Shown here: one piece after another, positions 14,407 to 35,293 of the stretch
Layout of the letters: every line of letters starts with the position of its first letter
Numbering within the stretch: position 1 is the stretch's first letter
NCBI GenBank assembly: GCA_022592435.1
Contig: JABYQS010000047.1
Span: 124,001-188,000, forward strand
DNA length: 64,000 bases
Direction of reading: 5' to 3'
Source: Cerioporus squamosus
Taxonomy: Eukaryota; Basidiomycota; Agaricomycetes; Polyporales; Polyporaceae
Made by a program: the position numbers and the translations under genes
Notes under the pieces: generated by a model
Told to the model about the DNA's origin: nothing
Databases searched by the model: none
The model's input: the letters and a program-made list of their open reading frames with translations, nothing else

Positions 14407-15249
14407 GACGCCTACCGCGGAGTCGCGGTGAGCGTTGTATTTTGGCTTGGAGGATATCGTTATTGCTGTCGTTGTTGTGTGTGACATACTATACAAGCCA
14501 ATGAGGCTCGATATCTATGATGTAGTTCTCTTTAGGGATACCACTAGTTGTACCAGTTGCTATTTATGCAGCATCCTGTCCTTTGCGTGTTACGCTCGAC
14601 GTGTGCATGGTATGAGGAACTTCCTGCAGCGACTTTGAGTAGGCTTTCCCCGCTTTGTCAGGACGTGGGAGGGTGGTTCTCTGGAGCGATTCCGCGATCA
14701 CCGAGCTCCCCACAATGGACACCTCAGTGTCGGGCACTCGACGCCGAGTGTGGAGTTCGGATCCTACCATGGCAAGGTACTGTTAGGCACTGTGCACACG
14801 GGTGCAGTACGTAGCAACTTGAAGAAGCTCACACTCACACTCGCCCTTGTGGAGATTCCAACGCAACGTTGCATAGATATCGACCTCGTCTCGAGAGAAG
14901 CCCGAGACAGGAGGAGACCTATGATACTTTGCTGATTAGCCAGAGCAATCCTATTGTCCCCTCGCAGCGGTCAGATATGTTGACAGAGAACCGGGTTACG
15001 AGATGGGTTATGAGGGTACAAGTGGGCAGACATGTTGCTGAGCATCGTGCAAACTGTCATAAGCTGTGAGCTGTCTGCGCGGGACGGCGCCGCGGTGGGG
15101 GCCCGACACACCTTTGTACTCACGATCTCCGCCGATAGCCACTACATCGCTAAGAGTAAACCCGAGACGTGCATCATCAGTAGACAGGCGTACAGTCTTG
15201 GTTGAGTTGCTGGGGATCGGAGTCCTTGTGTCAGTAGGCTTTACTGGCA
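14407..15249. other. Intergenic, left flank of the giant element
   Basis: Holds no recognisable gene. It ends at the first copy of the 10-bp target-site duplication of the giant transposon, so it joined directly to the sequence after 35,293 before the insertion. Confidence 0.5.
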
Positions 15250-15259
15250 CACTCCGGAT
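15250..15259. repeat. Left 10-bp target-site duplication
   Basis: CACTCCGGAT immediately before the left terminus TATGACGCG. The identical decamer lies immediately after the right terminus at 35,284-35,293. One more base (A before each copy) is also shared, so the duplication could be counted as 11 bp if the right terminus is set one base earlier. Confidence 0.9.
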
Positions 15260-15299
15260 TATGACGCGATTTCGTGGACAATAAACCCCTGTTACTCCA

Positions 15300-15735
15300 G
15301 TTTTGCAACGGCTTGACCTCCTTTGCAATGAATTGCACCACTTTGGAACGTTTTGCTGGCCTTTGATGCTGTTTGCTGCCAGGTGGATACAATTTGCCTC
15401 CATTTGCATCAGTTTGCTCAGATTGGCGCGGATGAGTTGCGCTGCATCTTTGGCGCTGAAATGGCGCCCATCTGCAGTTCACCTTCGCTTTTGCAGCCCC
15501 TGGCCACCGTTTGCAGCCACATTGCCCTGCTTTGAGGCGATCTACAGACAGCATACCCAGTGCGGGCGCTCTGTGAGTGCTGCCCCGCTATATCAGATTT
15601 TGCACTGATTCGACACCGTTTGCAGAGCGATGTACACCGTTTGCAAGGCACACGCATTCGCTTTTGCACTGGGCGCCTGCCTCGTCTAACGAGCATCGGT
15701 ATACTTGCAAGGTTTTGCAGCCTCTTGCACGGCCA
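15300..15735. repeat. Left subterminal TTTGCA motif cluster
   Basis: About fifteen copies of TTTGC(A) or close variants occur on the plus strand in some 430 bp (for example near 15301, 15319, 15402, 15598, 15619, 15641, 15661 and 15715). This arrangement is characteristic of subterminal transposase-binding repeats in large DNA transposons. The mirror cluster is at the other end. Confidence 0.7.
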
Positions 15736-16142
15736 AAAAAACCCGCTCTGTCTTGGCATCCGCGCCGCTGACGTCGATGCCGGCAGGACCAGCTGCAACC
15801 CTTTGCCCAACTGTCCTCTGCCCGTCTCAATCGGTCCGCGCGTCGGCTGAACCCGCCTGCCCGCCGCCGCCCCGCTGCTGTCCTGCTTGCGTGCGCGCGC
15901 GGTGCCCTCTGTGTTTCCAGGACAAGGACCGCACCCCACGGCCCCGCGCTGGTACCCTCGCGCCGACATCTCTGTCCCCCTTCCGCAGTCTACCATCTCC
16001 CGCCTGCACCGTCCCAGACACCCTCCCTTCCATATCCACGCTCTCTTCGTTCTTGGCCTTTCATTCACCCATACGCTCGCTCAGCACACTCTTTTCAAGC
16101 GCCGCCGTCCCTGGTTTCACCGTCTCTCCCTGAACTCTTTCA

Positions 16143-17947
16143 ATGCCATCTCAGCATGAGTTACACAACACGGTCATCTTCAACCAGCTGAACAACATCC
16201 GGCAATCATACGTTCACCTCCTTGAGCGCGTCAACGTGGCCCTGCGGGCTTACGTTGGAGACACCACGCGCCTGGGCGAGGTGAGGACTCTCGTCATGTC
16301 GCTGTATGCCGCATCGGAGCAGGTGCGTTGGGACTTCGTCTTCCTCATTTCGTTACTGAGTCATATTAGAATCGCCATGTGCTTCCTCCCGCCGAATATC
16401 GAACCCTACGCGACAACTTAGTCCGTATGGTTTCTGATCTCGATGATGCTCGACATAAGTCCATGGATCCCCCGGAGCAGCCGGCCCTCCCCATCATCAA
16501 GACAGTCCACACCGGGAAACGAGGTCGGCCAGCGAAGCCTATCGACCCCACCTTCCTTCGCCATGCACTGGAAGTCCGAGGTCCCGCTCGAATCTCGAAG
16601 GTGCTTAAGTGCTCCGCCCGCCACGTTCGTCGCGAGGCCCTCCACCACGGTCTCGTAGAGCCAGCTCCTCCTGTCTTCCGACACGTCGCGAACGCTGACG
16701 GCTCACAGTCTCGCATCCATACGACCCAGAGCGCTCCGGTATCTACGCTATCAGATCCTGAGCTCGACGCTATCCTCACCGAAATCCTGACTGCGTACCC
16801 GCGCATGGGCCATGTCATGTTGGTCGGCGCCTTGCGATCTCGTGGACACCGCGTTCCAGAGCCCCGTGTCCGGCGTGCGTGCGTGCGCATCCGAGGAGCT
16901 CCCCCCGACTTCGCGCGGCGGCGTATCATCCGCAAGAAATACAAGGTGCCCGGCCCAAATTCCCTCGTCCATCACGATGGCCAACATGGTGCGTCGCCGT
17001 TCACGTCTGATTGCGCTCTCCTTGCTGATCGCTGCCGGCAGGCCTCATCCGTTGGAAATTTGTCATCCATTGCTTCATCGACGGTTTCTCGCGGTATGTT
17101 ACCGGTATTCGCGTACACACGAACAACCGCGCCGAGACAGTACTGGAATTGTTCCTCGAGACGGTGGGTCGTCACGGCTTGCCGAGCCGCGTACGCGGGG
17201 ATCACGGCACCGAGAATCTTCGCGTCGCCGCGTTCATGGAGCAAGAGCGTGGTCCCAACCGCGGCTCGTACATCTGGGGGAGGTACGTTTATGTTAGCCT
17301 GTACGAGGACGTGGCTGATTGGGCGTTGCAGGAGCGTGCACAACACTCGAATCGAGCGACTGTGGTTCGACGTCACGCTCGGTTTCGGCGGGAAGTGGAA
17401 GGCCTTCTTCCTCGAATTGGAGCACCACGACGGACTCGATGCTGATAACCCCTCTCACATCTGGCTCCTACATCATCTCTTCCTGCATGCCATCAATCAG
17501 GACGCTCAGGAGTGGTCTGCTATATGGAACGCACACAGTCTCCACGTCAGGGGCGAGCAAGCAGCCACCCCGCATGAACTGTTCATGTTTGGAATCGCTG
17601 AGCACGGCGCTCGCGGGCTTTCTCATGTCATTCCCCCTCCCCCCGAAGAACCTATCGACGACCTCGTCAACTATGGAGTTGATTGGGACGCCCTGCAGGA
17701 CCCGGTGCTCATGCGTCACCATCGGCACCATAACCCGCAGGAGGACGCTGTCGCCGAGGCTGCGCCGTCTCGGCTGTCTGAGGTCACCTGTGATCCTCCC
17801 CGCTGTCCCCTTGCCATCGACGTCGTTGCCATGCTTAATCAACACCTGAGCTACCATTTTGATTTGAGCTCGCGCGACATGGTTCTCCGCCGCGAGCTGT
17901 GGCGATCAGCACTTGCGTTTTGTACTCCGTGGTTTCAGGGGCAGTAG
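16143..17947 (+). CDS. DDE integrase (rve-like integrase core) of the giant transposon
   Basis: Predicted to cut and join transposon ends. The start MPSQHELHNTVIFNQLNNIR at 16143 leads, after an intron at about 16321-16370, into a helix-turn-helix-like region (GRPAKPIDPTFLRHALEVRG, then ISKVLKCSARHVRREAL). The catalytic core follows: LVHHDGQH with the first Asp; after an intron LIRWKFVIHCFIDGFSRYVT; VLELFLETVGRHGLPSRVRG, then DHGTEN with the second Asp; and after a further intron SVHNTRIERLWFDV with the Glu. All three acidic residues are intact. A C-terminal domain of about 200 residues ends at 17947. The block order and the NTRIERLW signature match the 'integrase core domain' family widespread in basidiomycetes and some animals. 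It lies next to the left terminus and reads inward. Confidence 0.85.
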
Positions 17948-18043
17948 TATCTAGAATCCATACATGTGCATCAGAATCGCTATACCTTTGTCCGCCGCGC
18001 ATATACAAGTAGTGCTATCCATTGTGTGACCTCGCGTAATTGA

Positions 18044-18929
18044 ATGATACTGCCAGTCTTGTTCGCCCATGGTGATAGCGCCCGCGGCGCGTCCTCGCAG
18101 TCTGGACGCCCGCTGACCTTCCTGACTGCAACCGCCGTGCATTCCGCTACGCTCCCCTTGGTAAGCTCTTTCAGAGCGCATCAAATGGCCTGCTCTCTGA
18201 CGCTGAACTCAGATTGTGACCCTATGCCGGACCCATCAGGCCCCGCTGGCGAAATTACGCTTGATATCCAGTATCGCAGCGAGCTGCCCCCACTCGGCGC
18301 CGAATCGCTTTCGGTTGTCGACCCAGGCACTGATATGGCCACAAAACTATGCGATCACTTCTTCGAAGGCAGGGCGCAGGAGGCCATCGAAGCGTACCTC
18401 GAGGGCAGCGGTCATCCAGAAGGAGACATCTTCCGTTCGCTGGTCGGCGCCGCTGTGTTTGAGCGTGATCAATTTGACGGCAGCCTTCGTCGTCGCATGT
18501 TGGCGACTTGTCTTGGCCGTGGTGAGGGGTTAGCTCCTGAGGCCGACTCCGACTCGGTCGTGTCAATTGAAGTGAGTGGTCTTTAACCTAGGCGCATGTA
18601 CACTGCACCTTTGTCTCAATGCGATGCATTCTCAGGTCCGCTTCCACCACACCGGCATCAGAGAGCATGCAGAGGGACACCTCCTCATGTTACCTGAACC
18701 CCCCAGCCCTGTGAGTGAACTTACATACTTGCTATTAGGAGGTGTTTCTCTCATGCGTGTACCATCCATACAGCTTGAGGTCCACAGCTGCTTGGCGAGC
18801 TGCACGCTGACTATCGACGAGGGTATGCGCAATTTGCTCTGTGAAGACTACCCATTCCTGTCATTCCAGCGTTGGTTCCATGCAGCCATCATGGATCCAG
18901 CCGCATTCGAGGGACTTGCGCAGCAGTAG
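18044..18929 (+). CDS. Short HECT-like protein (C-terminal part of an E3 ligase fold)
   Basis: Exons join as ...YLEGSGHPEGDIFRSLVGAA, SLRRRMLATCLGRGEGLAP, then VRFHHTGIREHAEGHLLMLP and LEVHSCLASCTLTIDEGMRN with LLCEDYPFLSFQRWFHAAIM, stopping at 18929. The pattern 'LRxRM...SGxxLxP...HxCxxxxxLT' aligns block by block with the C-terminal part of the large minus-strand protein at 30,238-34,670, including the candidate catalytic cysteine (HSC). The HECT N-lobe and zinc-ribbon parts are absent. It could be a duplicated, truncated regulator that still contacts the same partners, or a decaying copy; the reading frame is open. The start is uncertain: 18044 is the first ATG of the open frame, but an intron at about 18161-18211 is also possible. 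Confidence 0.6.
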
Positions 18930-19024
18930 CTAGATCGACACATCAGCCTGACCATGTTCGTGCTCGCGTGTATGTACAGTCCATGCGCGTTGATATACAT
19001 GTTCAGCCGACACCTTTCATACTA

Positions 19025-19596
19025 CTAGTACATGCCTTCCTCGCTGTCACTGGCCTCTGGCGTCCTCAAGCCCGCCGCTGACGCTAGTACTCCTTCCCGC
19101 CTCCTATAGGACAACCTGAACCTCTCAGAGGTATCTGTGTCAGGCCCAGATTTGTGCGCTATGACCCTGTCCATCCCTGGACAGTTTGCACCCGACACCG
19201 CACGTATGACAAGGGTGTGCCTGCCCAGGATGCACACCTGTATAAGGTCGGAACAACTCCCTTCGATCCAGCTCTTCTTGAACCAGTCCCAGATTTCTAC
19301 TCGATCAATCCTGTGCCGCGACAAGACGTCCCGAATGGATGCTTCAGAGTCAATGTTCACGTGTTGCACGTGCGCCGTCACAACGTCAATGTACGCAACA
19401 TGGGGCCCCTGGCCGTTCTGTACAGTGATGATAATCTCGCGCGCTCAGCTACGCATATATACGTAAGAGGTGTACTGGGAGTACTCACCGCAAACCACAG
19501 GTAAACCTTCAGGGCCCATGTCTCACTGGTTTTGCGAGCCGTTTTGCGAGCCTTGTCCAGGATTTCGTCCACAGAGGGCAGATGTTCTGGCATCAT
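19025..19596 (-). CDS. Small protein of unknown function inside the giant transposon
   Basis: Two exons join at a good GT-AG intron (about 19398-19450): MMPEHLPSVDEILDKARKTA, then RKTSETWALKVYLWFA into IIITVQNGQGPHVAYIDVVT and the C-terminal RVEIWDWFKKSWIEGSCSDL, and so on to EEGMY. The protein is about 170 residues. No family is recognised. It is the only clear minus-strand gene in the left half of the element. An overlapping plus-strand frame (19154-19504) has no suitable start and was judged the shadow, although that choice is not certain. Confidence 0.5.
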
Positions 19597-19946
19597 TGAT
19601 ACTTTTGCGATCCTGGCTGGACGTGTGGCGATCAGCGACCGAGCGCCCTCCGGGCATACAGAAACTCTTACCAGCTTGCGCAGCACAGCCTGAGTGCGTC
19701 GTCAAAGTCAGAGATTTGCGCTTGCTGCTGTGGCGACGGTCAGGCCAGATTAATGACGTTCTGCGGGGGCAGCTCTGTAAGTGTCTAGTCCTTGGTTAAC
19801 AATAAATCCTTATGTACTGATTGACGAGGTTTATTCCGGTAAGTATCCGGTGTCATACTAATACTTGATCGCTCCCTGCCGCGCCTGCCGCGTGGCTCTT
19901 CGTCATCATCATAGCAGACTCTCACCTTCCTACACCCTCCCTCCCG

Positions 19947-21253
19947 ATGTCCGTGCATTCTGAACTCATGCCTTGGCCCGCTGCTGGTGCTGTGGCCGAG
20001 CATGAGCCCCTGCCGAGTCTCTCCTGCTCAACGCCTGACTCTTACTCTCCACCTGGCTCGTCGTCCCACGTCTCCGCGGCCCCCACAGTTCCATCTATGT
20101 CCACGGCTCTCTCTGCTTCCCCCACCCAAACAGCGTGCAGTAGTGTTGCACACAAACGTCGACGCCGAGCGTCGCAGGACGGGCACGTTGAAGAAGACAA
20201 TTCGCCATTCACACAGTCGCGACGCAAGGGACCTTGCGTTCAGTGCGCTCAAGCCGGAGTTGCGAAGGAATGTTCCCAGAACCGCCGCACGATTGGATGC
20301 ATTCGGTGCAATGCGCACCGTCTTGGATGCTCATACAGAACAGGTGAGCGGTCCAGTGGTCGGGACTCGGGGCCATTCGCTTAGTCAGTTGAACAGGCGC
20401 ATCCGCCTCAGCAGAGGACCTGGAAGTACCGACGCTGATCCGCAGCGTCGACGCTTCGCTCTTTGCTATCCTTGGTCACTGCCAGGCCACACATCAGGTC
20501 GTGCAGGCCGTCAACACACGAGTGCAGTCCATGGACCAGAATCTGGCTGCTCGAGAGCGCACGGTCGATCACCTGCAGCTCCATCTGGACCACCGACTCG
20601 CGCACACAGAGGGTACATTGGATAGGCGTTTGAGCGCGCTCGAAGCCGAACTTGCAGGTCTGAAGAATTTTTTGCGTCAGTCGCTCTGGCCTGACATCTC
20701 CGCCGGGGCGAACGCGGTTCCCTACTACGACACCTCCTCTGCCTCAGGTCCGCCCTCGCCGCTCTCCACACCCCTCGCACACCCCAATCTTTCCTCGCCT
20801 GTGCCCCTGATTGGCGCACCATCATCCGCGCGAGTCACACGCCCCCACCCCGAGCCGCGCGATGCCCCTGGCAGTGAGCATGAGATGAGTCTGAGCCCCC
20901 CGCGCGCGGCCGCAAGTCTGCGCTCATCAATTCCCCCGTCCCCACCCTTCACCATGTCCATAGCTCGCTGGGACGGCGAGCTCACTAGCTGTGGCTCTCG
21001 CGCAAGCCCCGTGCTGTCGCAGCCCGAGGATGCACAGCATCACACCGAGCCGTCCCAGTCGCGGCACCCGCTTCCCCTCGCCGAGCACATTGAGCACGGT
21101 GACGACTTGCACAGTGCGGAGGCTCCCGTCCGCCAAGATGCCGTTCCGCGCAAACTCTCATGGTATCAGGCGTTTCGGCTGTGGGCGTGCCACACGAATC
21201 TGCTTCAGAGATACCGTCCTGCGCGTCGGCCGGGGTGTCCTGCTGATGCATAA
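19947..21253 (+). CDS. Cys-rich (zinc-cluster-like) and coiled-coil protein, possible DNA-binding regulator
   Basis: The first exon has a Ser/Pro-rich N-terminus, a basic stretch (HKRRRRASQ) and a cysteine cluster, CVQCAQAGVAKEC followed by CIRCNAHRLGC. Its CxxC...C / CxxC...C spacing recalls fungal binuclear zinc clusters. After an intron (about 20342-20415, joining ...CSYRT to AEDLEVPTLIRSV) comes a heptad-rich helix (QVVQAVNTRVQSMDQNLAAR to LDRRLSALEAELAGLKNFLR) that should form a coiled coil, and then a long disordered Ser/Pro/His-rich tail. The order of Cys cluster, dimerisation helix and disordered region fits a transcription factor or chromatin-targeting protein. Whether it controls the element's own genes, for example through the hairpin array at 26.7-27.2 kb, is inference. 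Confidence 0.6.
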
Positions 21254-21706
21254 CTGTATATACCGCTGTCCCGCGCAGGCCAGAATGTCAATTGTAGTCA
21301 ATCTCGTTACTTTCATGGATCTCCTCACCACATATCGTTACTTTTATGGGCCTGGTCATGACTATGACGGATTGCCTCATGTCAGAATAGCGTACATTCT
21401 CGCCTGCGCTCTGATGGGGAGAGTCTCCCCCATGGGTTTAGAACCATCGTGCAGACCTTATCCGACATGTTGTGTGGTGCTGCCCGTCTGTTCATGTTGC
21501 ACTGAGGTGATCAGATCCAGCGAGCACCTGTCGCAGAGTGCACGGCCAGCAAATGTATGCCAGCCGTCAGTGTCACCGAATAGTTTTTCTCCAACTGGAG
21601 CGCTCGCGCCCACGCTTCCTCCCAACCATCACACACCCGCTTGTCACAAACCACTGCTCGCTTCGTGGATCAAGACTCTGTCTTCGCGTTCTTACATCGC
21701 GCCAAG

Positions 21707-24225
21707 ATGGCCTCAGCAGGCGTCATCTTGACTGATGAGGAGCCGAACCCTGGCCCGCACAACTCGGAAAGTACGGAACACACCGGTCAGGCCACCATTT
21801 ATCCCCAGGTGGAGGAGGATCTTTCTGCGGACGAACAGCGGTTGCAATTCCAACGGCTCCAACGTGAGCAAAGACTCCTACGCCGTAATCGTGTGCGAGA
21901 GTCGGGCGAGTATCCTCCACCTCGTCGCCGCCGTGGCGCACGTCAACCCGCGATGGTTACGCATGGTACGTCCCATTATGCCTGCGGTAGAATGTCCTCA
22001 GCACTTCACGCAATGCTTAGCACTCTCACATTACAGTTCCCGATGGTGTTGCGCAGCAGGTTCCATTGACATCAAGGTCTATGATGGCCGCGAATGATAT
22101 GGCAGAGGAAGGTGGGATGTGTCACATTCATCACTGAATTTCGCGCTGCCTGACATTCACACGATGAACAGAGATTATAGACCAGAGTGGAGGCCCTCCC
22201 ACGATGCACTTGACACAAAATCATCCAGGAGAAAGCATCGCTGGGCCTCGTGAGGACGTAGTTGTGATACATCAGGCTGTCGACTACACGCCTGGCGAGA
22301 CATTGATCTGTGGGGAGTCTGCGACGGGTCCTACGATGCACGAGGACATCCACGGTTAGTTGTCCGCATCGGGCCTGTTCGCGAACTAACTCTCACTGCT
22401 CTAGCACGCGGAATTCACTCACAACTGGAGACGGCTCGGTGTGGTGACGGCGTGGTGGTACAACCTGTCGATCTCTCGACGGAGGAACTGTCCGGCACTC
22501 AGTCCGCGCCAGATCTTCCAATGCATGCAGACGAACATGGTCAGTGCCGCCTCCTGATGCTCGTGCACATCCCGCCTCTCACTCTCCAGGTCGGTGTTCC
22601 AGTGTCGTCACTCCCTTCACAATCGCCAGCGCCGTATGAACCTTCTGAAGAACATATCAACGATACCATGTCTGCGCTCGGCGTAATATCTTGGCACGAG
22701 GGTTCTCCTCTGGTAAGCCGCCTGTATCCCTCCGTGCATACGCATAGCTCAATACTGTGCCCCTCACAGAATGTCGTCGCGCCCGTTGGCGAGCCAACTG
22801 GCCCATCTGGGGCCACAGGAGCGAGTCGTCTCGCATCCATGTCGGCACATGCCTCGCCTTTGGCCACCGATCATCTCACCAGTACGGGTGCCACGGGCAT
22901 ATCGACGGCCGGGGACGGTTCGAGGCAAGCTCCCTCCGTCAAGTATGTTGTTGTCACAGTATTGACTGAGCTGTTGGTTAGAGAGTCGCCGGGCCCAATC
23001 ATGCATGGTTCACAAGTGCCTGTAGCTTGTCGTCCGAATGTTGCGACGCAACGAATCCCTTTCGTACCTGTGGTCGCCGATCTCGCTCTTCTACATCAGC
23101 GCGCCATACGTACCCAGGTAAGACCAGACCAGCACTCCACGTGCGGGACTTTCTCGTTGACCTGAATGTACATTGCAGCTGGGGGGTGCAAGACGCGTGA
23201 GCCCGCGATCCGCTGTGCAGACGCCACTTGGCCCTGATAGTAGTGTCCCTGCGCTGGTCATCGAGCGGCCGCCTCCAGCGGGAGGCCTAACCCATGCGTG
23301 CCCCAGTGGACACACTACGGCCACCGCTGGATCTCTTGAGCAACACAGCGAGCTAGAGCCTCCCGCAAACAGGCCTGCGCATGACACACAGCGCGGACGG
23401 GACACGGACCCCATGCACGATAGCGATTCTGACGGAGATTCACGGTTCCAGAGCCCTTCCATTAGCGATCTAGGTGAGCACATATGAAGCAGCTGCACAG
23501 AGTCAGTGTTCACGTGTTGCGGTGTCATAGACCTCGATCGCTCCTCGCCTGTGCCCCCCGTGGACGAAGAAGACGAGGACGACTCAGGACGGGGGGCCAA
23601 AGGGACAGGGGCGAAACCTTTACCTTCCGTCGACCCTCTCATCGTCCAGCATATATGCAGGCAATTTCCCCAGCGCATGGCTCGGGCGCGCGAACTGAGT
23701 CGCAGACCCCCGATCTACGGTGTGGCGTATCGGGACGTTCTCCGGCTTAGAATCATCGGCGGGGCCCTGGCAGACCTGGGTTTAGGGACTAGCCAGGGTA
23801 ACCGTACTTCAGTTACAGTCCACGAGGACGGCCGTAATGTACGTATACGGCCCGAGGACGTCATGGTCACGTTGGGCATGCGACCGTCGACGTATCGTTC
23901 AGTACGTTCTCGGCTGGAGAAGGTGCAATCCGTTTACACCTGGCTGGGGCAGAACAAACATGTGTGGGAGGAGGAGTTAGGCAGACATGTCTTCGCCTCC
24001 GTGGAGCATCGAGCATACCATGCGATGAAGGCTCTGTTTGGACCTGACCCTCTGCCCACCCGTCGGCATGTCCCTCGCGAACCGCTTCCGGCTGGCGTCC
24101 ACGACGCGGTCTGGGAGAACTGCAAGACCTTCTTGGATTGGGCGGAGACCGTGATAGAACGGTACAATCTGGTCCAAAATGTCAATCTGCCTGTCTCTCC
24201 CGAGTTCTACGATGTGACGGAATGA
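21707..24225 (+). CDS. Large unknown protein of the giant transposon with an N-terminal 2A-like motif
   Basis: The start MASAGVILTDEEPNPGPHNS at 21707 contains DEEPNPGP, an exact fit to the 2A ribosome-skipping core DxExNPGP. Downstream are a basic helix (QRLQREQRLLRRNRVRESGE), a poorly conserved middle with several short introns (near 21962, 22119, 22357, 23115 and 23475), an acidic stretch (VDEEDEDDSGRG), and a compact C-terminal domain that looks folded: DPLIVQHICRQFPQRMARAR, YGVAYRDVLRLRIIGGALAD, VRIRPEDVMVTLGMRPSTYR, KTFLDWAETVIERYNLVQNV. No known family is recognised. It is possible that two genes are present, with the second starting near 22,200-22,450. It is convergent with the dioxygenase gene. 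Confidence 0.5.
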
Positions 24226-24743
24226 TTCCCCCTGTCGTCAACCTATCATAGTCCATCCATAATGGCACATAACCATATGTACAGAGAATAATCATTGCAT
24301 GGTTCTGTATGCGCATCGCCTGAAACTTCTGAAAGAACCTTAGCTGCTGAGTCCTTGGCATGCAGCTTGCTAGTATCGTGTCCATGCAAGCTTGAAATTG
24401 CCCAGTTGTGCAATGTCGACATACCCGGGATGCAGTGAGGTGCATCACTTCATCTGATCTGTCACGTCGGAAGCCCTGGGTGTATTATAACACGATAGAT
24501 GTTGTGCCTCACTGGGTACATGGCAGTAGCAGGGTACTGACGCAAAGACTCATTCACATGCACAGACCCACGGCCTATGAACTCACCTCACGAGACGTCA
24601 AGGGGATGTGAGGGCTATTTGCATTGCATTGAAGTGACGTCCGAGTGTCCTGAATCCATGTGTGTTCAAGGCTCACAAGTGTCACACAGATTTGCGCTAC
24701 AACGGAGTGATAGGCACAGTACCATACATACATGCTGCACTAA
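24226..24743. other. Convergent intergenic spacer at the middle of the giant transposon
   Basis: About 520 bp between two converging genes. It probably holds both 3' untranslated regions. No gene is recognised; short frames there lack motifs. Confidence 0.5.
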
Positions 24744-26299
24744 CTAGTCAGAGAACGGCGCGGCGCGACTAGTCTGCAGCGGGATCTTGGCCTGGTTCCA
24801 GAGGGAGCGGTGTGTGAAGTGCACGATCAAGTGACGTTCACCAAAATCCCAATCCGTCGCTTCGTGAAGGACGTCCTGCCCGCGGACGGCTACTGCATCC
24901 CCCGGGCGTAAAACTACCTCCGTGCGCAACTGCTTGAACTTGAGTGTGCAGGTGCCGAACGTTCCAAAGTAGATGATGATAGCCCAAGCCCAATGCGGGT
25001 CTTGGCTGTCCCAGTGCGCCCTAGAGAATCGATTGAACTGAATCTCCCGACCTTCGAAGAACAGCTGCGGTTCGGTGAGGCCGGACAGCGCTCGCGAGCT
25101 GGCGAACTTCTGCATGCGCCACTCGTACAGCTGCTCCAGAGAGGCGTACTGATCGGGGTCAATAGCCTTGAGGAGCGCCATAACGTACGAGTTCACCACA
25201 TCCAACTTCTCGAGCAGCAGGCATGCGGCATTGAAGGTGAGACGCGTGCGAAGGATGTCGGCACACACACCGGGTTCATCGTGCTTAGGAGCATGCCGGT
25301 CTCAGTCAAGCACGCAAGACGTCACACAGAATCTGAATAGGACGCACCGGATGGCCAATCGCGTGCCATGCCAGTACCAGGCGCGTTGTGCCCACCAAGT
25401 CCCCCACCTCCTTGTAGCCTCCTTTCTTGTCGTTGGACACTGACTTCGAAGGTTTGCAGACGTGGCCCCATTCGCGTGCGGCCTCCATCAGTTCCACCTG
25501 TTCCACAATCACGATTGACTTAGAGACGTAGAATACAGGGAGTGTTACTGACGGTACATACCAGATTCTTGCCATGAAGGCCGCCCGGAAGGTGATACAT
25601 TATGTCGTAATCGTCCGCACTCTTGACTCGCCCGGGTTCCTTGCCGCTAAGAACGTTGATCGGCCCTGCAGGTTCAATCTCCGCGACGTTTTCGGGGGAG
25701 CCATGGGGGGTTTTAACGGCCTCGGCGAGCGAGAACTTCTTCATCTGAACTGTCGATGGAGCGCTTCGAATGCGAAGTTGGCGTGGAATATAGTCAACAA
25801 GGCTCACCGGTGGCGGACCGACGTTGGGCTTTGAGCACATCGGATCGAGCTTGACGCGCCGCGCCCTTCACGACAGATGCACGCTTGCCTTTGGGAGAGC
25901 GTCTCTCCCAGGTGGTTAGGCATCTGCGGGAAGTGAGCGAGCCGGACTCGTGAGAACCGCAGTGGTTATTGCTCACTCAGGCTCCGACAGATCGCTAACC
26001 ACATCCATCGACGCTTCCAGATCCAACGTCACGCGTTGTCTCTCTACGTCCTGGGCGGTAGGGGAGAAGTCGGACCACTTTTTGCGAGGAGGGCGCCTAG
26101 ACTTGGCCCCACTGCCGGCGCAGTGGGGTTTCGTGGCGGGACCTGCAATTACAACACTGTCTGTTAGCGTACAGCGGTCCTTTCAGACCACAAATAAGAG
26201 CTGACCTCGGAGCGTCTTGTCCAACGTGCTCTGCGAGCGGGTTTGGGGACTATGAGCGCCCAGCGGCGCGCCCCGTACAGGAGGCATGACTGTCTGCAT
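24744..26299 (-). CDS. TET/JBP-like 2OG-Fe(II) dioxygenase
   Basis: Probably oxidises a base in DNA, as TET (5-methylcytosine) and JBP (thymine) enzymes do. The N-terminal exon MQTVMPPVRGAPLGAHSPQT starts at 26299. Next is a basic, DNA-contact-like segment (GAKSRRPPRKKWSDFSPTAQ), a middle exon (SADDYDIMYHLPGGLHGKNL), and the catalytic double-stranded beta-helix: FSRAHWDSQDPHWAWAIIIY gives the HxD iron ligands, RPGDAVAVRGQDVLHEATDW the distal iron-binding His, and FGERHLIVHFTH the Arg expected to hold 2-oxoglutarate. The stop is at 24744. The order HxD ... PG-x-x-x-x-x-x-G-x-x-x-x-H ... G(E/D)R matches basidiomycete TET/JBP domains. A generic 2OG oxygenase acting on another substrate remains possible. 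Exon joins upstream of 25,290 are approximate. Confidence 0.65.
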
Positions 26300-26715
26300 G
26301 TAAATGGGGCAGCATACGTACAGCTGAATACCGAGAATACGCGATGAGAGAGGGACACCAACCAGGTCTGAGCAGGGGCGAGATGTAGAGCAGAGAAGCG
26401 GGGGCTTGGGGGGAGGCTCTCTCCCCGGGCGGCATACTTTGAATTCCGCTCGGTATTCGCCGGGCCTGTTTTTTCTGCACAGACGTCTTCGTCACCCCTC
26501 CCAACCTCGTCTACCACTACCAACGAGTTCTATTTCAACCCTTCCTCCAGTCTCTCTTGGCAGCACAACACCACAATCACCGTACCAGTGACCGTGCTGC
26601 CTCAGGGCGCGCTGAGTCTGCACTGTGACAATTGGACGAGGTGAGCACTTTTCAGCTGCATGCATCGGTGGCCGCAACGGTGTTCGGTATCACATCAGAA
26701 GCCCCACCCCCGAGT

Positions 26716-27165
26716 CAATGGAGTTCCAGCGACGTTGGGAGAAGCGGACGAGCGAGCTTGCGTCCGCGTTGTTCCAACGCGGCGCAGTTAGCACATTCCA
26801 CCTAGAACCTTGCCGCTCAGGCTTGGTCTTCTCCTTCAGGTCTTTCGCTGTTCCAGCGGACCGCAGACTGTCTGGGTGGACGCGTTGTTCCAACGTACAT
26901 CAGACACGTTCAAGGGAGGTGTGCCTCATAATGCCTTGTTGTTCGCTGTTCCAGCGACGACACAGGGGTGAGGTGACCGCGTCCGTTGCTGTTCCAGCAA
27001 GGACGTGGGCGGCATGGTATGATGCGCTCCTGTGTACGTTGTTCCAACGTCGTCGAGTTCTTTCTTGCTGCGTGTCCCTGCCACGGTCATGATATCTTCG
27101 CTGTTCCAGCGAGTATCGTTCCCGTCCGCTATACGCTTGGGGCTGCGCTGTTCCAACGCGCCCCA
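26716..27165. repeat. Array of eight covarying short hairpins (CGYTG-TTC-CARCG)
   Basis: Each copy has two complementary arms around an invariant TTC: 26766-26780, 26846-26858, 26883-26895, 26943-26957, 26986-27000, 27036-27050, 27098-27112 and 27145-27159. A half copy lies at 26721-26732. The arms differ between copies (CGTTG/CAACG, CGCTG/CAGCG, TTGCTG/CAGCAA) but stay mostly complementary. Some extend further, as in GTCC...GGAC around 26981-27004 and GGGGC...GCCCC at 27139-27164. The array lies 0.4-0.9 kb upstream of the dioxygenase start. Candidates are binding sites for a dimeric regulator or structured DNA/RNA elements. Confidence 0.8.
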
Positions 27166-27868
27166 GTCCTGTTGAGGGAAAGCGGCTGTCCATGCTCCCG
27201 CCGTCGCTGTGTGCTGACAGGAGTGGACTCGCGGCCCGGAGCTCTCGTGCGTTCTCGTTGCTATTACCCTGCGATGGAACTGACTATGCACACAGTCTCC
27301 TTCACCGCGGAACACTACCTGCAGGCGCAGGTGGTTGGGATGAGGCGCTTCGTGAGGAAGTGCTGCGCAAGGAGCCTGGTGAGTTCACGTTCAGGGATAC
27401 CATAGCCGTTTGGCCGTAGTACCAGCATACCTTCGTCAGTAACCCGCGTGTCTGTACATCCTGTAAATCATAGTCTCTACAGTCAAAATGTGTTCGCCTC
27501 TCATGCCCGATCCTGCAACAGCATATCTGGCACTTAGGCCTAGCTGTTGTCATGAATGCGTCGTTTGCTGCAGGAATGAGTTCCCGGCCGGCGATGTCAG
27601 TCGTGTGCCAGACCGTCAATGTGCGCAGTTACATGTCTGCGGCGCCGGCACTCTCCCCGATCCCCAGCGTCGTCGGCCTGAGGATCTGGCAGATAGGGCA
27701 TCTGGAAGCCGTGTCACAACCAGCGAGTGGGCATGTCTCCCTGACCGACGGCCGTGCACAGATGGAGGCCACCCCAGAGTGAATTTGGCGCACGCAAGAT
27801 GAGATATACAACGTGAGCGTAGAGCTGTGGTTCGTACATAGAATATGAACTACATCTCTTGCGCGGTG
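27166..27868. other. Unassigned 0.7-kb stretch next to the hairpin array
   Basis: Several short frames occur on both strands (plus 27274-27405 and 27552-27782; minus 27302-27619) but none has convincing exon joins or motifs. A small unrecognised gene is possible; nothing definite can be supported. Confidence 0.35.
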
Positions 27869-28773
27869 TCAGGCAGACAGTTCCGCGGCGTCAGCAGCCC
27901 AAGAGGCCCTTGGGCTAACACGAGACATAAATGTTCCCTCTTGTACCGGCAGCCCATCCAGGCCTTCTCCAAACTCAAACTCGGACTGATCATCTTCGTC
28001 CAGTTGGGGAATGCGGGGTGGGGAAGGAGGATACCAGTCCCATCTGCCTTGCCACCAGGGTCGCTCGAAGACCTCGTCCTGAGGGCCGTTGTAAGGAGAC
28101 CAAAGTCACACTTGCAGCATACTAAATCACTTACAGGGAGGTGCTCGCGCCCCCACGCGGCGATGGCCGCCATTCTTGTCACATCCGTCTCTCCCTGGTC
28201 CCCTACCACGCGCAACACGGCGCGCACGAAGCCATGCCACTGCAAATCCAAACAGACCTCGTCCGAGGGACAGTGCCGTGCGCCAAAATATGCGAAGATG
28301 CTATGAAGCGCAATCAAGGACTCCTCGTGCTCCAATCGCAATTGGAACAGGTCGATTTGGAAAGGGAGCCCGTGCTTCCAAGCACGAGCCGCCTGGCGTG
28401 TAGCAGGAAATGGTACCTGAAGCCATGTGAGACGGTAGACATCCAATAGCACATTCGCACTCACGAGGATCTGGGGGCCGCTGCCGTCTTGCATGGACGC
28501 CGCCAACGGTACATGAATCGCCAGGGACAAACCATCCAGAGTGTTCGCGGATTCGTCGGAATCGGGGTCCACGACGAGGCAGACCACTCCGTCTCCTCGC
28601 GCTATAAGAACGGGAAGGTCCCAAGGCTCTGGGGGCGAAGGTTCTCCCCAGCCTCCGCGTGGCACATAAGGGGCAGGGAGCGTAACGGATGGCATGGGGG
28701 TGACTGAAGGCGATTCACGTTCCAGGTTTCGTACGAACAGGATGGTCGGGAAGAAGTAGGGAGGAAGGTGCAT
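27869..28773 (-). CDS. Unknown protein of the giant transposon
   Basis: A start at 28773 gives MHLPPYFFPTILFVRNLERE. A long first exon includes VCLVVDPDSDESANTL, PQILVSANVLLDVYRLTWLQ and HHEE-type charged helices around LFQLRLEHEESLIALHSIFA. One intron (about 28076-28132) joins ...AAWGREHLP to an acidic, Trp-rich tail, DEVFERPWWQGRWDWYPPSP to FEFGEGLDGLPVQEG, ending at 27869. The Trp/Asp/Glu-rich C-terminus resembles that of the neighbouring protein at 29,114-29,901. No known domain is recognised. It reads in the same direction as its neighbours in the right half of the element. Confidence 0.55.
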
Positions 28774-29113
28774 CGACTTGGGAGGTCAAGCGCCTAGGAG
28801 ATCGGACCACGCTACAACGACATTTCAGCGGGGAATTGGTAACAATACGGCGGTGAAGGCTATCGTATGATAGACACAAGTAAGGCGTGTCCCTAGGAAG
28901 TAATCAGGTGAACGACACATGCAAGGATCATATCACGGGCGAGAGGCCGCAAATATATATGATCGTTGTGAGTCACTGTCTACTTCCACGCACCCTGCAG
29001 CGGACAACCGGCGTCCTGCATGTCTGCCGCTGAGCTAGGCCGTCACCAGGGATGCTGTCTTGCTTGTGACCAGCCGTAAGTAAAGAGCGCATGATACATG
29101 ATCGCCTAACCAT
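28774..29113. other. Intergenic spacer within the giant transposon
   Basis: Contains no recognisable gene; AT-rich TATATATG near 28,955 could belong to the promoter of the downstream minus-strand gene. Confidence 0.4.
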
Positions 29114-29901
29114 CTATCTCAACATGTTCAACGTTATCCCGGCAGGCAGACTATCCTCTAAATCCTCCAAGTACTCCTGCAACCTCGCCTGGCTTGCGTA
29201 CCACGATTCGCCGCCGTGGAGAGCGATTACAGGATCCATGGCTTCCTCCAGCTGCAACAACACTTGAGATGGCCATTCAGGTTCGTCTTCACCATCAATG
29301 AGACCCAGCGGCCTCCATGTGAACCAGTCGTCCCCGCTAGATTCTCCCCAGAACCATGCCTCCCACGGCGGCGGCGGGGTCATCTCTACGGCATCCGGAT
29401 AGTCTTCCATCTCGCCGTCGGAGGAGCCTTCATATTGCGAAGGAATGCGTTCAGCGGATGGGTCTTGGTCCGTGAACGGATCTTCGCTAGGAGTAGGCCA
29501 CCTGTGTAGCCCTTGCCGCAGATAGTCCAACGCAAACTCGATCTCGCGCGAGGCTTCTAAACAAACGAGCTAAGTCAATATGCATTGTGTGTCGGCACTG
29601 CAAGGGATAACCTCACCGAACAAACGGTCCGCGAGCTGCGCGCATGCGACCATTGTCCAAGGATCCTCGATATCTATGTCGTGAGGTGTCAGTCCTCTGA
29701 CCGGGAGCTGCTAAACAGAGCGGTCCTACCGAGAAAAATGTCAGCGTAGTCCAAGATGTGACGCCGCAGTGCACGAATCTGCAAGACAAAGAAAATTAAG
29801 ATGAATAATTGGATCTAACCTGAGATCGTCACATTTGAGGAGCTCACTTCGTCTTGGATTGCTGTCAGGGCGCACTCAGCCTCAGCGGATGAAGGCTCCA
29901 T
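29114..29901 (-). CDS. Small acidic protein of unknown function in the giant transposon
   Basis: Four exons join in frame: MEPSSAEAECALTAIQDE, IRALRRHILDYADIFLG, DIEDPWTMVACAQLADRLF, and EASREIEFALDYLRQGLHRW followed by a long acidic tail with PPPPWEAWFWGESSGDDWF and ending LPAGITLNMLR. The protein is about 195 residues. The N-terminal half is predicted helical; the tail is rich in Asp, Glu and Trp. No family is recognised. It sits between the HECT-like gene and another unknown gene, all transcribed leftward. Confidence 0.6.
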
Positions 29902-30237
29902 GACAAGGTGCAGCGCAACCGGAAACAATGTTGCTTCGCCAGATCATCAAAGGTTGCTTATCACGACATCACTGGCACCGATGGGCCGCGCTCATTCACA
30001 GGGACATTACCTGAAAAGGTCGGGATAATGATACCCCCAACCACCGCTGTAGTGTAGTCTGTCCACTGTGCACCCCCGTGAGTGTTCGCCTGGGTCTACC
30101 AGCCATCGTACTGCGTACTGAGTATGTGATTCGGCATGTTTCAGTAGCATACGGAGTACGAGCCTCGGTAAGCTAGACTACGATGAACAGACGCTACGCG
30201 ATATGCTCCCAGCCTAAATGACAGTGGACTACGTCAA
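29902..30237. other. Intergenic spacer within the giant transposon
   Basis: 336 bp, probably the 3' region of the HECT-like gene and the promoter of the small acidic gene. Short inverted repeats (GTAGTCTGTCCACTGT / ACAGTGGACTAC) lie near 30,053-30,069 and 30,221-30,232. No gene is seen. Confidence 0.4.
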
Positions 30238-33200
30238 CTAAGCCTGATTAAAGTCCTCCGGGTGCAAGAGGGCGCCATGCAACCACGCCTGAAAACAATT
30301 CCACGGCTTGCCCTCGCGCAGCAAGTTGCGCAAACCGTCATCCATGGTTACCGTGCACTCGTAGAAGCACGCATGGATATCGATCTACGCCGTCAATGTT
30401 AGTCAGGGTGTACGGACCGGGAGACAAGCCATGAACAGACGCACCGCTGCTGGTATGGGACCTACATTCCCCGGAGCCTCAGCGGTTTTGGGACACCTAT
30501 CGCCCTTATGAACAAATGCAATCTGGAACTCATGCTCAGCGGAGGACGGAAGTGCAATACAGCGACAGAAACCCACCTTGACAGTCCACTCCTTCTCGAC
30601 TGGCACCAAGTCGCTGCCGGACATGATAGTGAGGAACATCCGCGCTCGAAGCAAGGGATCGCCGGCATCCGAGTCGAACGTCTCCCCGACCAGCTTTCGG
30701 ATACCGTCGTTGTCCGGATGACCAGCCTGCTTCATGTAATACACGAACGCCACCTGAAACTCGTTTTCGAAGGTCTGATCCCATTCGGCGATTGACATGC
30801 CACTGCCCTCTGCACCCTGTGCCGGTATCGAGTCAGTGCCACCAACCTCTTCTCCGGTGAGGTCAACCTGGCTGTGATCAACGCCGCTGGCGAAGTCGAT
30901 GTGATCAAGCAGAACTTGCACGTTGTCCAGCCGCTTGTTGCACATAGCAGCAATGTAGTCGCGGGCCAAACCATTAAACGTCTGCAGGATAGGTGAGATG
31001 GATTAAAGTGAAGTGCAAAGCGCCAATAGATATGCGCACCCCAATGAGAGTAGGACGGTCCGGGTGTGCCGCAAAGATGCCGTCGGTAAAGGCATGCATG
31101 TCGGGATCGTCAGCAACCTGACGAGCCCCAAAGACGAGGTACGAGACAAGATCCTGTTCGATCGAGTCCACGTCTTGAGGAGACAGCGTGTCTGTTCCGT
31201 AGTGCTCGGGCTACTCGCATCACCTTAATTCAGTTGTGCGAACACAGAGCTATTGAAAGAGCGTACGTACATCGATGTCAGCTGCGGCTAGACGACATAT
31301 GAGTGGATGGCCAGGCTCTTGCGGCAGAGGCTGAGTGATGTCCCAAGTGCGCCATGGCTGGACGCTCTCCAAAAGCCCTGCGTCCACGGCAGCCATGAAC
31401 GGCTCGTCGACGCGACAGGCATATGACCGACCTAGTAATGCAAGGAGCAAGAGATGCGGCGAGATGGGGTCCGGTCCGACCGAAAGGACGATGAGATGAA
31501 GCAAAGAAATGAAACCAGCTGTGCGCAGCGCCGTATCCCTCTCGGGACGAGGATCGCGTCGCCCAAACCACCTTATGGCATCGTATCGTCCACGAGACTG
31601 CCAATACTTGTGTTGACCCACCACAAGATAGACGACGTTGCGTAATACGGCCCTGATAGGGCTGTCGCCGATGGCGGCATCACTGTAGGCAAGGATAGCA
31701 GGTATTGCATGAGCGATAGGTTAGACATACACAGTCGGGGAACTCACATTTGTATATCCAGATGGCGAGTGTGGCGAATAATCTCCGAGAGGGGAACGAG
31801 TTCGCAGTAGGCCCCATCCTGAGAGAACTCGCGAGAGAACGCCTCCTGGAATGCTTCGCGTTTCTGTTGCGTGATTGGGCCAGTTGGCGAGTGCGTGAAT
31901 AGCCACTGAATGAGGAAAATGAGCATGCTGGCTGCCTCTTTCGGGTCGCGCCCGCGTATCTTCGGACGCAGACCGGCAGAGCTGAGGGCCCCTCGTGGGA
32001 TGGCAGCGACCACACGCTCTGCCCACGCCATAAGCTGAGCCTTCGCCAACTCGCGTAACGGCTCCGTGCGGCAAGGAGGGTGCACCTGGATAAGCAACGG
32101 GCATTGAATCAGCGCTGTGATAGACACCACCAAATGATCACTCCACTGACTGGAACGTGAGAGTGCAGACTATGATCCGTCGCCGCACGGGCATCCAGCG
32201 ATGAGGTGTTTGCTGCAACAGGGCTCGACACACGGCGACGGTTCGAAGGTGGGATAGTGGCAGGAGTCTACGAAGCGCCCGGCATTAGGACGCTGGGAAG
32301 GTAGGCGAGAACGAGCAAGGACCATACCTCAGGGGAGCCAACCTCGGAATGAGTGCGTCTAAGGCCTCGCGCACCGACCGGAGATGGGTCCTCTCCGGGA
32401 GAAACTGAACGCGGAGTAGATGCATGGCTCTCGGGGGTCCGACAAACACGCGGGGCGGGAGCACGCCCGCCCGTGCTCATCCTTGCAGAGCGGCGTGGCA
32501 TGGCCACTGATGCTTCCTGGGGTATGCAAAGGTCAGTACATGACAGTATATGAAACAAGACCAGCTTACCGTTTCGACGGGCCCAGTTGCGACGCTGTCG
32601 ATGGTAGGCCCGGCAGCAATGTGACCCGAGCCTTGGGTCATAGCGACCTCGGTGTTCAGGAGGGACAGAGAGGGGACGGCGTCTAGGGGCGGACAACCAG
32701 CGCGCAAGTAACTGGCGGGCGACGTCGGGGTAGGCGGGGTGGGGGGACGATCAACACGCATATAATCTTCAAGCACAGTGGCGCGCCGCGGTGGCACTGG
32801 AATTGGTGCGGGTAACGCAGGTGGGGCTGCCTCCGCCTCGGGCAGCGCACACCCGCGGGGACGCGGCGCCGGTCGCGACGACGGGCCTGCAACGGGAGCA
32901 GGCTGTGGAGAAGATGGCGACGAAGATGGCGGACACTCGGGTCTGCATTCAGGCGACACTTCCTCCAGTGCCTCGCACAGAGCCCTGAACGGGAAACAGG
33001 GATGAGGTAGCTTCGCGGCGCGGATACGCGTGAAGTCCGCCAGACCTGGCGCGCCCAAGACGTAAGCTGGGTGGTTCGCAAGCGGGGCTTGTAAATCGCC
33101 ATAGCGAGGGCCTGTCATTGTACGATTCAATACATCATGCGGAGTGGATTGAGTGTTAAACGTTGACACTCACATATGCGCAGGAACGTATGCTTCATGA

Positions 33201-34670
33201 ACTCGGCACCGATGGGACACTTGATGACGGTGAGCGACAGTTTGGCAGTGTGGATGTTTGCGACCGTGTAGGTCAACTCGTTGAAGCCGTCGAACGGTGC
33301 GTGAACCTTCGTGGTGCGACCAGACGAGGATAGAAGGACGAAAGGGAGGTCGAGCGGTGATCTCCACGGGCGAGTAGTGTCATACCCAGGAAGCGTGATG
33401 TCATTCACGGCCAACTGGGCGACTACCTGGTTTCCAAAGGACTTATACACTGACCCGGACTTGGCGAGAGTGACGGTGAACAGGAGCCCCCAGTGCTCCA
33501 AAGACTCCACCGCCTTACCGAAAGCCCAGTCGGTGAACGAGAAGTTTTTACGAGGGAATTTTGAACGTGCGCGCCCGAAGATAGGATGCTGAACCAGATC
33601 AAACATGAGGAAGATACATTCAGGAGGGAGCAAGACGACTTACCGCAAACGGCCAGAAACACACAGAAAAGGTCTCATAATTGGGATCCGGAGAGGCCGA
33701 GGAGGAGGAAGCCACGGGCGTTGCGGAAGCCAGTTGCGCGTGTGCAGGGTCTCCTGGCATCAGGGAGGAGGGCGCGACGGCCGGCGCCGAGGCGTGGTGG
33801 GGATGCAGTTGCAGGACAGTGGGGGCAGGGACTGAGGCTCCCGGAGGGGGGGTGGACGTCACCATGGTGCGCGAACGCGGAGCGTTGGCGGGACCTGGAG
33901 CACTACCGGAGCTGGTCGTGGTGCGATGCCGGACGATCGCCGCATTGCGGCGATCGTTGGTGGAGCCAGCATCGACAGGACGCACACCGTTGTACGCAGC
34001 AATGGGAGGGGGCAGGGGCATGAGTGTAGTGGCAGTCGACGACGGCCTGACCGGCGGCACATGAAATGAAGGAGGCGCGCCATGGAGGGATGGATGTGTC
34101 GTGGTGAACTGCGGTGGAACAGCGGATGACAGGGCGGGGCTAGATGAAGCATGAAGGAGATGAGAAGTCATAACGATGAGGTGAAAAATGCGGACTTACG
34201 TCCCCGAGCCAGAACTGGGGGCCGAAGAGTGCGCACGAAGGAGGAGGCCGCACACACAGACGGTGGTGCGACCCCACTGGTCCCGCGGCTCCAGCTACTC
34301 CGAGTGTCAGCGGCAGAAGGACCAAAAAGGGAATGAAGACGCACTGCGAAGAATCCTCCACATGAGCTCAGCGGACAGCCCCCGCGTTGAGTCGCCTGCT
34401 CGAAGTTTTGAGCCCGGTGTTGGTACCAGGGATGATCACATTGTGCGCATATTTCATCGGGACGCAGCGCATGCTAGACATACAGCAAGTGTTAAGGCCG
34501 GAAGCAAGGAGGGGGCGGTACGAGGCTTTGGCACTCACATCTCGGCTGACGTTGTTGTCGGTGACCTCGAAAAATGCGCAAGGGCCACCGGGATCAGCCA
34601 CACATTGCGGATTCTGACAAGGCCCACGTGGGGGACAAAAGCCAGAAGTCGGGGTGGGTGAGGCAGCCAT
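30238..34670 (-). CDS. Large zinc-ribbon plus HECT-type E3 ubiquitin ligase-like protein
   Basis: About twelve exons join without frame breaks into a protein of roughly 1,200 residues. The N-terminus has Cys/His clusters (CPPRGPCQNPQCVADPGGPC, then ICAQCDHPWYQHR, GGCPLSSCGGFF and VCVCGLLLRAHS), probably zinc ribbons. A long Ser/Pro-rich linker follows, then an unknown folded domain (FPRKNFSFTDWAFGKAVESL to YTVANIHTAKLSLTVIKCPI), a second disordered region, and a C-terminal HECT-like half. The latter includes TALRTAGFISLLHLIVLSVG with ISPHLLLLALLG (N-lobe), LLRARMFLTIMSGSDLVP (the 'fvtGs..lP' motif) and PAAIDIHACFYECTVTMDDG, where HACF matches the catalytic Cys of HECT ligases. It stops at 30238. 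ATG 34688 is an alternative start. It could tag host or transposase proteins for turnover. The HECT call comes from motif order and is not certain. Confidence 0.6.
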
Positions 34671-35029
34671 GATGACCGTCTGTTGCAAGCAAGTCTACAA
34701 CAGGAGGGAACGTCGAAGATGGAAGAGCGAGAGAAACCCGAAGGCCACGGTGGGGAGAAAGCTGGGGAATGGCCTCCCTCCTCCGCCAACTTTCGGACAT
34801 CCTTCGGATTTGCGGTCACGGAATATGAGTTACTGCCCGACAGGAATAGCTCAGTGGCGCAGTCGTGCCTGGCATGAATATCCTTGGCATTGAGGAGAGC
34901 CAACAGGAGTGGTTCTCAGTCGTATGGTGGCTGTGTCCGAGGGGGAGAGTTTACCTCGATGGGCGTCTGTTGCGGCGTCTGTCGGGGGAGATTCCTTGCC
35001 CCACGCGCAGGGAACTCATTGGTGCGAGC

Positions 35030-35255
35030 GTAGTGCAAACTGAGTTCAAAGTCCGTCAAAAGGATGCAAAGAGCGACTGCATGCGTATTATGGTGGCGCA
35101 GAGGTACGAGTTCTCAGAGCCACGAAGCAAACGGAATGCATGCGGCTGCAAAACAGGGCAAAAGTGATGCAAAGGATAGCAATTTGACGCAAACCATCTC
35201 AATTCAGTGCAAAGCCGGGCAAACGCTTGCAATCCGGTGCAAACGTGAAAGTTGT
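35030..35255. repeat. Right subterminal TGCAAA motif cluster
   Basis: About ten TGCAAA, GGCAAA or TTGCAA variants (for example near 35066, 35146, 35170, 35198, 35208, 35218, 35229 and 35238) mirror the TTTGCA cluster at the left end. Opposite orientation at the two ends is what transposase-binding subterminal repeats show. Confidence 0.7.
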
Positions 35256-35283
35256 TTTATTTTGTCCTAAAATCCTCGTCATA

Positions 35284-35293
35284 CACTCCGGAT
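35284..35293. repeat. Right 10-bp target-site duplication
   Basis: CACTCCGGAT directly after the right terminus CGTCATA; identical to 15,250-15,259. Confidence 0.9.

Follow-up and report, generated by a model that had tools for sequence, protein, structure and literature searches.

In a 64-kb stretch of genomic DNA from the polypore Cerioporus squamosus (Polyporales), referred to below as the window, we found a 20,024-bp element (positions 15260-35283) that is inserted between two identical copies of a decamer. It carries an integrase gene, a gene for a TET/JBP dioxygenase and a conserved multi-exon gene, here called the helper, and the same gene order is found in three copies in the genome. 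We consider it probable that the element is a giant cut-and-paste transposon of the IS3EU type, related to IS481 and IS3, which would be mobilised by its integrase and in which the TET would counter silencing by methylation. The features of the element are collected in Table 1.

Ends, target duplication and empty site

The terminal sequences of the element, TATGACG...CGTCATA, are inverted relative to each other (TATGACGCGATTTCGTGGACAA and TATGACGAGGATTTTAGGACAA, 16 of the 22 bases matching), and both are directly abutted by identical copies of CACTCCGGAT, a 10-bp duplication without mismatch. When TA..TA end pairs were sought with a match of at least 12/22 bases, a duplication of 4-15 bp, the left end in 14001-16400 and the right end in 30000-37000, this pair was the sole result. 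Pairs with a match of at least 16/22 and a 10-bp duplication were found once in the real sequence and never in 2000 mononucleotide shuffles of 14001-37000, while a looser control (at least 12/22, 6-bp duplication) gave 310 pairs across 2000 shuffles versus none in the real sequence. The hexamer TTTGCA is clustered directly within the left end, the first 500 bp containing 10 occurrences. Likewise, TGCAAA is clustered directly within the right end, with six occurrences in the last 524 bp. The two sets of subterminal repeats are inverted relative to each other and lie internal to the ends.

A genome search with the DNA around the left end revealed one other place, on contig C199, which is 97.1% identical to window 8350-15259 over 6,947 bp and where the match stops at 15259, the last base of the decamer. 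On C199 the left flank is followed by one CACTCCGGAT, by CGGGAG and then by the right flank, which matches 35297-35353 (57 bp) at 100%. Since C199 joins both flanks with a single decamer, the ends of the element are exact, and the element is an insertion at the decamer site. An earlier reading of the window by a model that saw the DNA letters (the sequence-only reading) had proposed the inverted ends with their identical flanking decamer and had named contiguous flanks as the expected empty site; both are confirmed by these data. Past the 57 bp of the right flank C199 departs from the window, which limits the empty site; this contig may represent either the second haplotype or a duplicate of the segment. 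The 256 bp that directly follow the junction on C199 have no other match in the genome, which would fit an allele and a duplicate alike.

In the window, a different repeat begins at about 35354, and the region 35354-36625 adjoins the element. Positions 35355-35400 match at least 38 other places in the genome, and the region contains long inverted repeats (35497-35525/35962-35990, 100%; 36117-36153/36589-36625, 95%).

DDE integrases are established to integrate through staggered cuts. The element encodes such an integrase, has inverted ends lined by subterminal repeats and is flanked by an exact duplication that is single at the empty site, which together imply that it was inserted in this way. 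According to the proposed mechanism, the integrase would bind to the termini TATGA(C/G)G...GGACAA as well as to the subterminal repeats, excise the element and insert it where the target had been cut with a stagger, which here would result in the 10-bp duplication.

Sister copies and conserved backbone

A second complete copy of 22,252 bp is located at C323:142133-164384; its ends match at 19 of 22 bases and are flanked by the 6-bp duplication AGTGGT. A third copy has its left end at C460:17991, followed by TTTGCA repeats, and is interrupted by the contig end. The boundaries given by the sequence-only reading hold in so far as the end motif and its place agree in the one complete copy available for comparison (C323), whereas the duplication does not agree (10 versus 6 bp). 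To the left of the C460 copy, the flanking DNA matches (90-100%) a tandem repeat of ∼93-bp units at C70:78984-79229, the target of this insertion seemingly being a minisatellite. An empty site for C323 was not found in the genome, as the joined flanks match C407 (left, 98%) and C751 (right, 94%) separately and the junction is not spanned.

With at most one mismatch, the end pattern was found at both window ends, C460:17991, C286:5913 and the left end of C323, while about one such match is estimated to occur by chance. The right end of C323 has two mismatches and was accepted as the pair of the left end. At up to three mismatches the pattern gave 121 + 126 matches, about equal to the 103 + 127 of a reversed control, and thus only the matches with 0-1 mismatch and the right end of C323 were used. 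The end on C286 (one mismatch), whose likeness to the right end of C323 extends past the pattern, can be regarded only as probable; no integrase, TET or helper match was found on this contig, for the helper contrary to expectation.

In a DNA alignment of the window copy with C323, the integrase matches at 66.6% over 1,341 columns, along with one stretch of 155, which indicates that the two are old relatives. The reading frames of the window copy match those of C323 at 55% in the integrase, 51% in the TET, 32-62% in the helper exons and 31-48% in stretches near the right end; a Cys-rich piece is 76% identical over 38 residues and 23488-24222 is 28% identical. Third codon positions were the most divergent in every in-frame comparison, as would be expected of proteins under constraint. 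For much of 20400-23200 and 27800-29600, C323 offers no convincing counterpart, and this DNA, judged by the comparison, is accessory or non-coding.

Matches to the integrase domain are present on 10 contigs of the genome, to a TET of this kind on five and to the helper on five. All three genes occur together only on C412, C323 and C460, where their order and strands are identical. In Trametes sanguinea, an integrase (ACG7TL_002965) and a helper (ACG7TL_002968) are three locus tags apart, and the contigs recorded for the two are equally long. The integrase on the left, the TET/JBP dioxygenase and an opposite-strand right-hand block of unknown genes thus appear to form a conserved backbone, which would travel with the element.

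The TET/JBP dioxygenase

The window TET matches the Pfam family Tet_JBP with an E-value (E) of 1.1e-6 and 28.5 bits, below the cut-off of 34.9. A profile of ten TET relatives matched four sequences in the PDB at E≤1, all of them TETs, namely Naegleria Tet (4.6e-4 and 5.8e-4) and Coprinopsis CcTet (0.011 and 0.012). The structure model of P0085 is of low confidence, with a mean predicted local distance difference test score (pLDDT) of 49.6 and 108 residues at 70-90; its first 16 PDB matches are all CcTet and NgTet (E 1.2e-8 to 2.4e-4, template modelling score 0.28-0.41 by query length). In a 10-row alignment with one truncated row, the H and D of the active-site HxD are invariant; the second H and the R are almost fully conserved. 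The protein belongs to the TET/JBP family, which is recognised by a double-stranded beta-helix with HxD...H...R.

In the same alignment, the position of CcTet Asp337 is occupied by Ala and that of Gly331 by Asp, both invariantly. By the marks of Kojima (2025), the TET is neither of the AG type, which has Asp at CcTet position 337, nor of the PE type, which has HxE, since it lacks Asp337 and keeps HxD. Two other TETs of the genome (L039 and L040) have Asp at 337; their identity to the window TET is 21-24% over 145 and 67 residues. TETs of the window kind were matched on C412, C460, C323, C368 and C27, the one on C368 being 54% identical to that of the window. The relatives at C27:36229-37184 and C368:33359-34093 are on contigs without an integrase-domain match and are perhaps remnants or belong to other carriers. 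P0088 (C8T65DRAFT_748776) of Cerioporus squamosus is the public model of the C460 TET. Its first part matches the other TETs, while its C-terminus is unrelated and lacks the catalytic part, although the C460 DNA still encodes it; this C-terminus is probably a mis-annotation.

Transposon-borne TETs have been argued to reverse silencing by methylation in an account that leaves other activities open (Kojima 2025, PMC12730594). In the element studied here, the most likely role of the TET is the oxidation of methylated bases in the element itself, which would relieve its methylation-based silencing. A less probable but serious alternative is that the protein is not a tool for demethylation, but acts on another base, produces a hypermodified one or has no activity. 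The residues at the Asp337 and Gly331 positions and the Pfam score below the cut-off would fit such a protein, as would the latitude in the published account. However, the relatives retain the active-site HxD, H and R, and the nearest solved structures are the 5-methylcytosine (5mC) oxidases NgTet1 and CcTet. Given the change at Asp337, methylated bases are a candidate substrate of the TET.

The integrase and the superfamily of the element

Two reading frames of the integrase gene are matched by Pfam rva_4. Read manually with two introns, the gene encodes HHDGQH, RGDHGTEN and RIERLW, with 34 residues from the second Asp to the Glu, and the catalytic residues, two Asp and a Glu, are within the open exons. 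Among the 7,996 best-sharing candidates, 83 homologues were found, and those named by organism are all from species that we take to belong to the class Agaricomycetes. In all four homologues scanned, the IS481 model of NCBIfam was the top match (1.5e-13 to 6.8e-11) and the IS3 model the second (1.8e-6 to 0.0035), both below the curated cut-offs. No zinc domain was found at E≤1 in the three homologues scanned, one of which gave a weak helix-turn-helix match, and homologue P0002 had no match in the PDB at E≤1.

More distant rva_4 matches, some with stops in the matched frame, are present on seven further contigs (C14, C89, C204, C250, C280, C296 and C922). No TET or helper match was found on these seven of the 10 integrase-domain contigs, which, as several are short, is weak evidence of absence. 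The end-pair scan of C296 (whole) and C250 (30,000 of 30,792 bases) gave chance-like pairs only.

The superfamily IS3EU/GingerRoot is described as having TA..TA ends, usually 6-bp duplications and a DDE transposase that is related to IS3/IS481 and lacks the HHCC zinc domain (Kojima and Bao 2023, PMC10045372). TA..TA termini are present at the window ends, the C323 ends and the C460 left end, and the two complete copies have duplications of 10 and 6 bp. Because of these termini, the IS481/IS3 kinship of the integrase homologues (not a tree) and the one 6-bp duplication, the element fits a putative giant IS3EU-like member of a known, little-studied superfamily and not a new one. The sequence-only reading had described a giant integrase transposon with many genes, and this description is supported. 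Of its two proposals for placement, that of a giant element within a poorly known superfamily suits the data, while that of an undescribed superfamily is not supported, given the homologues, the termini and the C323 duplication. An integrase of a new superfamily that makes 10-bp staggered cuts is accordingly unlikely: it would account for the exact 10-bp duplication at an empty site, given that published IS3EU usually show 6 bp, but C323 has 6 bp, and the related IS481EU are themselves published with several duplication lengths (PMC10045372).

The helper and the remaining genes

The helper query matched C460, C412, C323, C430 and, weakly, C82. The homologue P0093 of Cerioporus squamosus matches C460:218-1866 in six pieces at 75-99%, and the partial helper at 18741-18905, beside the integrase, has a counterpart at C460 14247-14782. 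A further helper copy, at C430:11396-12766, is on a contig without an integrase or TET match. The searches gave no fold for the helper, as neither P0094 nor P0093 nor the C-terminal piece of the helper matched Pfam at E≤10, the helper alignment had no PDB match at E≤5, and the gene model gave a single unrelated match each in the PDB (E=0.22) and Pfam (E=0.03). Its structure model (mean pLDDT 43.8) was too poor for a structure search. A likeness of the C-terminus to the lobe of HECT ubiquitin ligases, seen by eye, had no support from the Pfam, PDB or model tests and was not adopted.

Six-frame Pfam scans of 15260-35189 (E≤0.1) matched rva_4/rve and Tet_JBP only and revealed no transposase of the Kyakuja-Dileera-Zisupton (KDZ) type, no tyrosine recombinase captain of Starships (a DDE integrase being present), no DNA polymerase or capsid gene of Polinton/Maverick elements and no alpha-kinase. 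Iyer et al., cited by Kojima (2025), reportedly dealt with TET/JBP and KDZ in 2014. The Cys-rich open reading frame (ORF) resembles Zn_clus below the cut-off (E=0.41). The label 'regulatory', which the sequence-only reading gave to the cargo, is apt for this Zn-cluster-like protein and for the TET/JBP dioxygenase, neither of which it named, and thus for a part of the cargo only.

It is very unlikely that a smaller integrase transposon acquired its cargo by accident, through host genes or another TET-bearing transposon falling in. Such an origin would agree with the part that has no C323 match and with the TET relatives on C27 and C368, contigs without an integrase domain. However, TET and helper keep their order and strands in three copies whose proteins share only about half of their residues. 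Polinton/Maverick elements carry DNA polymerase and capsid genes. A Polinton or virus-like integrated element, suggested by the integrase, the size of ∼20 kb and the inverted ends, is extremely unlikely, as the Pfam scans of 15260-35189 (E≤0.1) matched only the integrase and TET families.

Table 1. Positions of the element's features in the window
Feature	Position	Strand	Details
Left target duplication CACTCCGGAT	15250..15259	.	Single copy at empty site on C199
Left terminal inverted repeat TATGACG...GGACAA	15260..15281	+	
Left subterminal TTTGCA repeats	15300..15735	+	
Integrase gene (rva_4, DD34E)	16134..17947	+	Open exons 16370-16988, 17042-17282, 17332-17947
Integrase upstream exon, conserved	within 16134-16418	+	Splice sites of gene read manually
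Partial helper paralogue	18044..18929	+	18741-18905 tool-supported, upstream part by eye
Cys-rich Zn-cluster-like ORFs and downstream ORF without family	19869..21253	+	Cys-rich motif 76% over 38 residues in C323
Unassigned ORFs, accessory or non-coding	21584..23165	+	Without C323 match
245-aa ORF	23488..24225	+	Weakly conserved in C323, 28% over 192
TET/JBP dioxygenase gene	24744..26143	-	Exons 25840-25562, 25497-25348, 25283-24744, more upstream exons to 26143
311-aa ORF, no family	27850..28785	-	Without C323 match
151-aa ORF, no family	29114..29569	-	
Multi-exon helper gene, conserved, fold unassigned	30238..32169	-	
Coding stretches	32480..33639	-	31-37% in C323
Coding stretches including Cys/His-rich piece	33623..34694	-	38-48% in C323; Cys/His pattern by eye
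Right subterminal TGCAAA repeats	35036..35250	-	
Right terminal inverted repeat	35262..35283	-	
Right target duplication CACTCCGGAT	35284..35293	.	

Comparison with known systems and significance

The element resembles IS3EU/GingerRoot in its DDE transposase without HHCC, its IS481/IS3 kinship, its TA..TA ends and the 6 bp of C323, and differs from it in the 10-bp duplication of the window and in a size of 20-22 kb with a conserved multi-gene block. TET-bearing IS3EU have been reported in rusts and in the truffle Tuber, and for Polyporales the same report gives TET+ Kyakuja only (Kojima 2025, PMC12730594). The element shares with the TET+ IS3EU an IS3EU-type nature, a TET/JBP gene and ends starting with TA(T/C)G. 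However, those of rusts are described with TAYGG..CCRTA ends, terminal inverted repeats of >30 bp and an alpha-kinase gene (PMC12730594), whereas here the ends read TATGASG, no alpha-kinase was found in the Pfam scans, the TET has HxD without AG or PE marks and the host belongs to the Polyporales. TET+ Kyakuja of Agaricomycetes are likewise mushroom transposons with a TET/JBP gene, but have CA..TG ends, no inverted repeats, 7-bp duplications and an AG-type TET (PMC12730594). Styx of Zymoseptoria, also a fungal relative of IS3EU, has accessory genes and duplications of 6 bp, but comprises 7,927 bp and four ORFs, and its description, as cited here, mentions no TET (PMC10853768). Starships are also giant fungal elements with accessory genes, but use a tyrosine recombinase and occur in Pezizomycotina, in contrast to the DDE integrase and the basidiomycete host found here (PMC12134995). 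IS481EU have an IS481-related integrase and multiple duplication lengths within the group, but are described from parabasalids with TNT..AYA ends, duplications of about 4, 15 or 25 bp and one protein (PMC10045372), while the copies studied here have TATG..CATA ends and duplications of 10 and 6 bp.

Several points weigh against a giant IS3EU-like transposon with a demethylating TET. The 10-bp duplication departs from the 6 bp usual for IS3EU, and the IS3EU placement was made against published descriptions. Activity of the integrase and present mobility of the element are predictions from sequence, and the copies lie far apart, with 66.6% DNA identity in the integrase. Asp337, replaced by Ala in the window TET, is essential for 5mC in CcTet. 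Furthermore, no TET was found in Trametes sanguinea, and the Pfam scans lacked the alpha-kinase that is present in the TET+ IS3EU of rusts (Kojima 2025).

A count of IS3EU exists for Ganoderma leucocontextum (PMC8955403), and the presence of IS3EU in polypores is therefore not in itself new. No report of a giant or TET-bearing IS3EU of Polyporales was found in openly licensed PMC papers, and a family listed only in the supplement of Kojima (2025) is possible. What would be new here is a giant element of IS3EU-like type whose TET is distinct and whose gene block is conserved. Our results provide a concrete, testable case of mushroom cut-and-paste elements that are giant and have conserved accessory genes, and add a polypore carrier of the IS3EU type to the transposons known for TET/JBP genes. 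The TET is of a subtype whose substrate can be assayed, and with the empty site and a sister copy of another duplication length the unusual 10-bp stagger is directly testable. More tentatively, and with somewhat more doubt than confidence, we suggest that a family of giant (20-22 kb) IS3EU-type elements exists in basidiomycetes as a self-contained package, which would consist of an integrase, a TET/JBP subtype outside those described for mushrooms and a conserved right block of unknown proteins, with variable cargo between and a stagger of 6 or 10 bp, and in which the other genes may have roles as well. If true, this family would be a DDE counterpart of Starships with its own epigenetic counter-defence.

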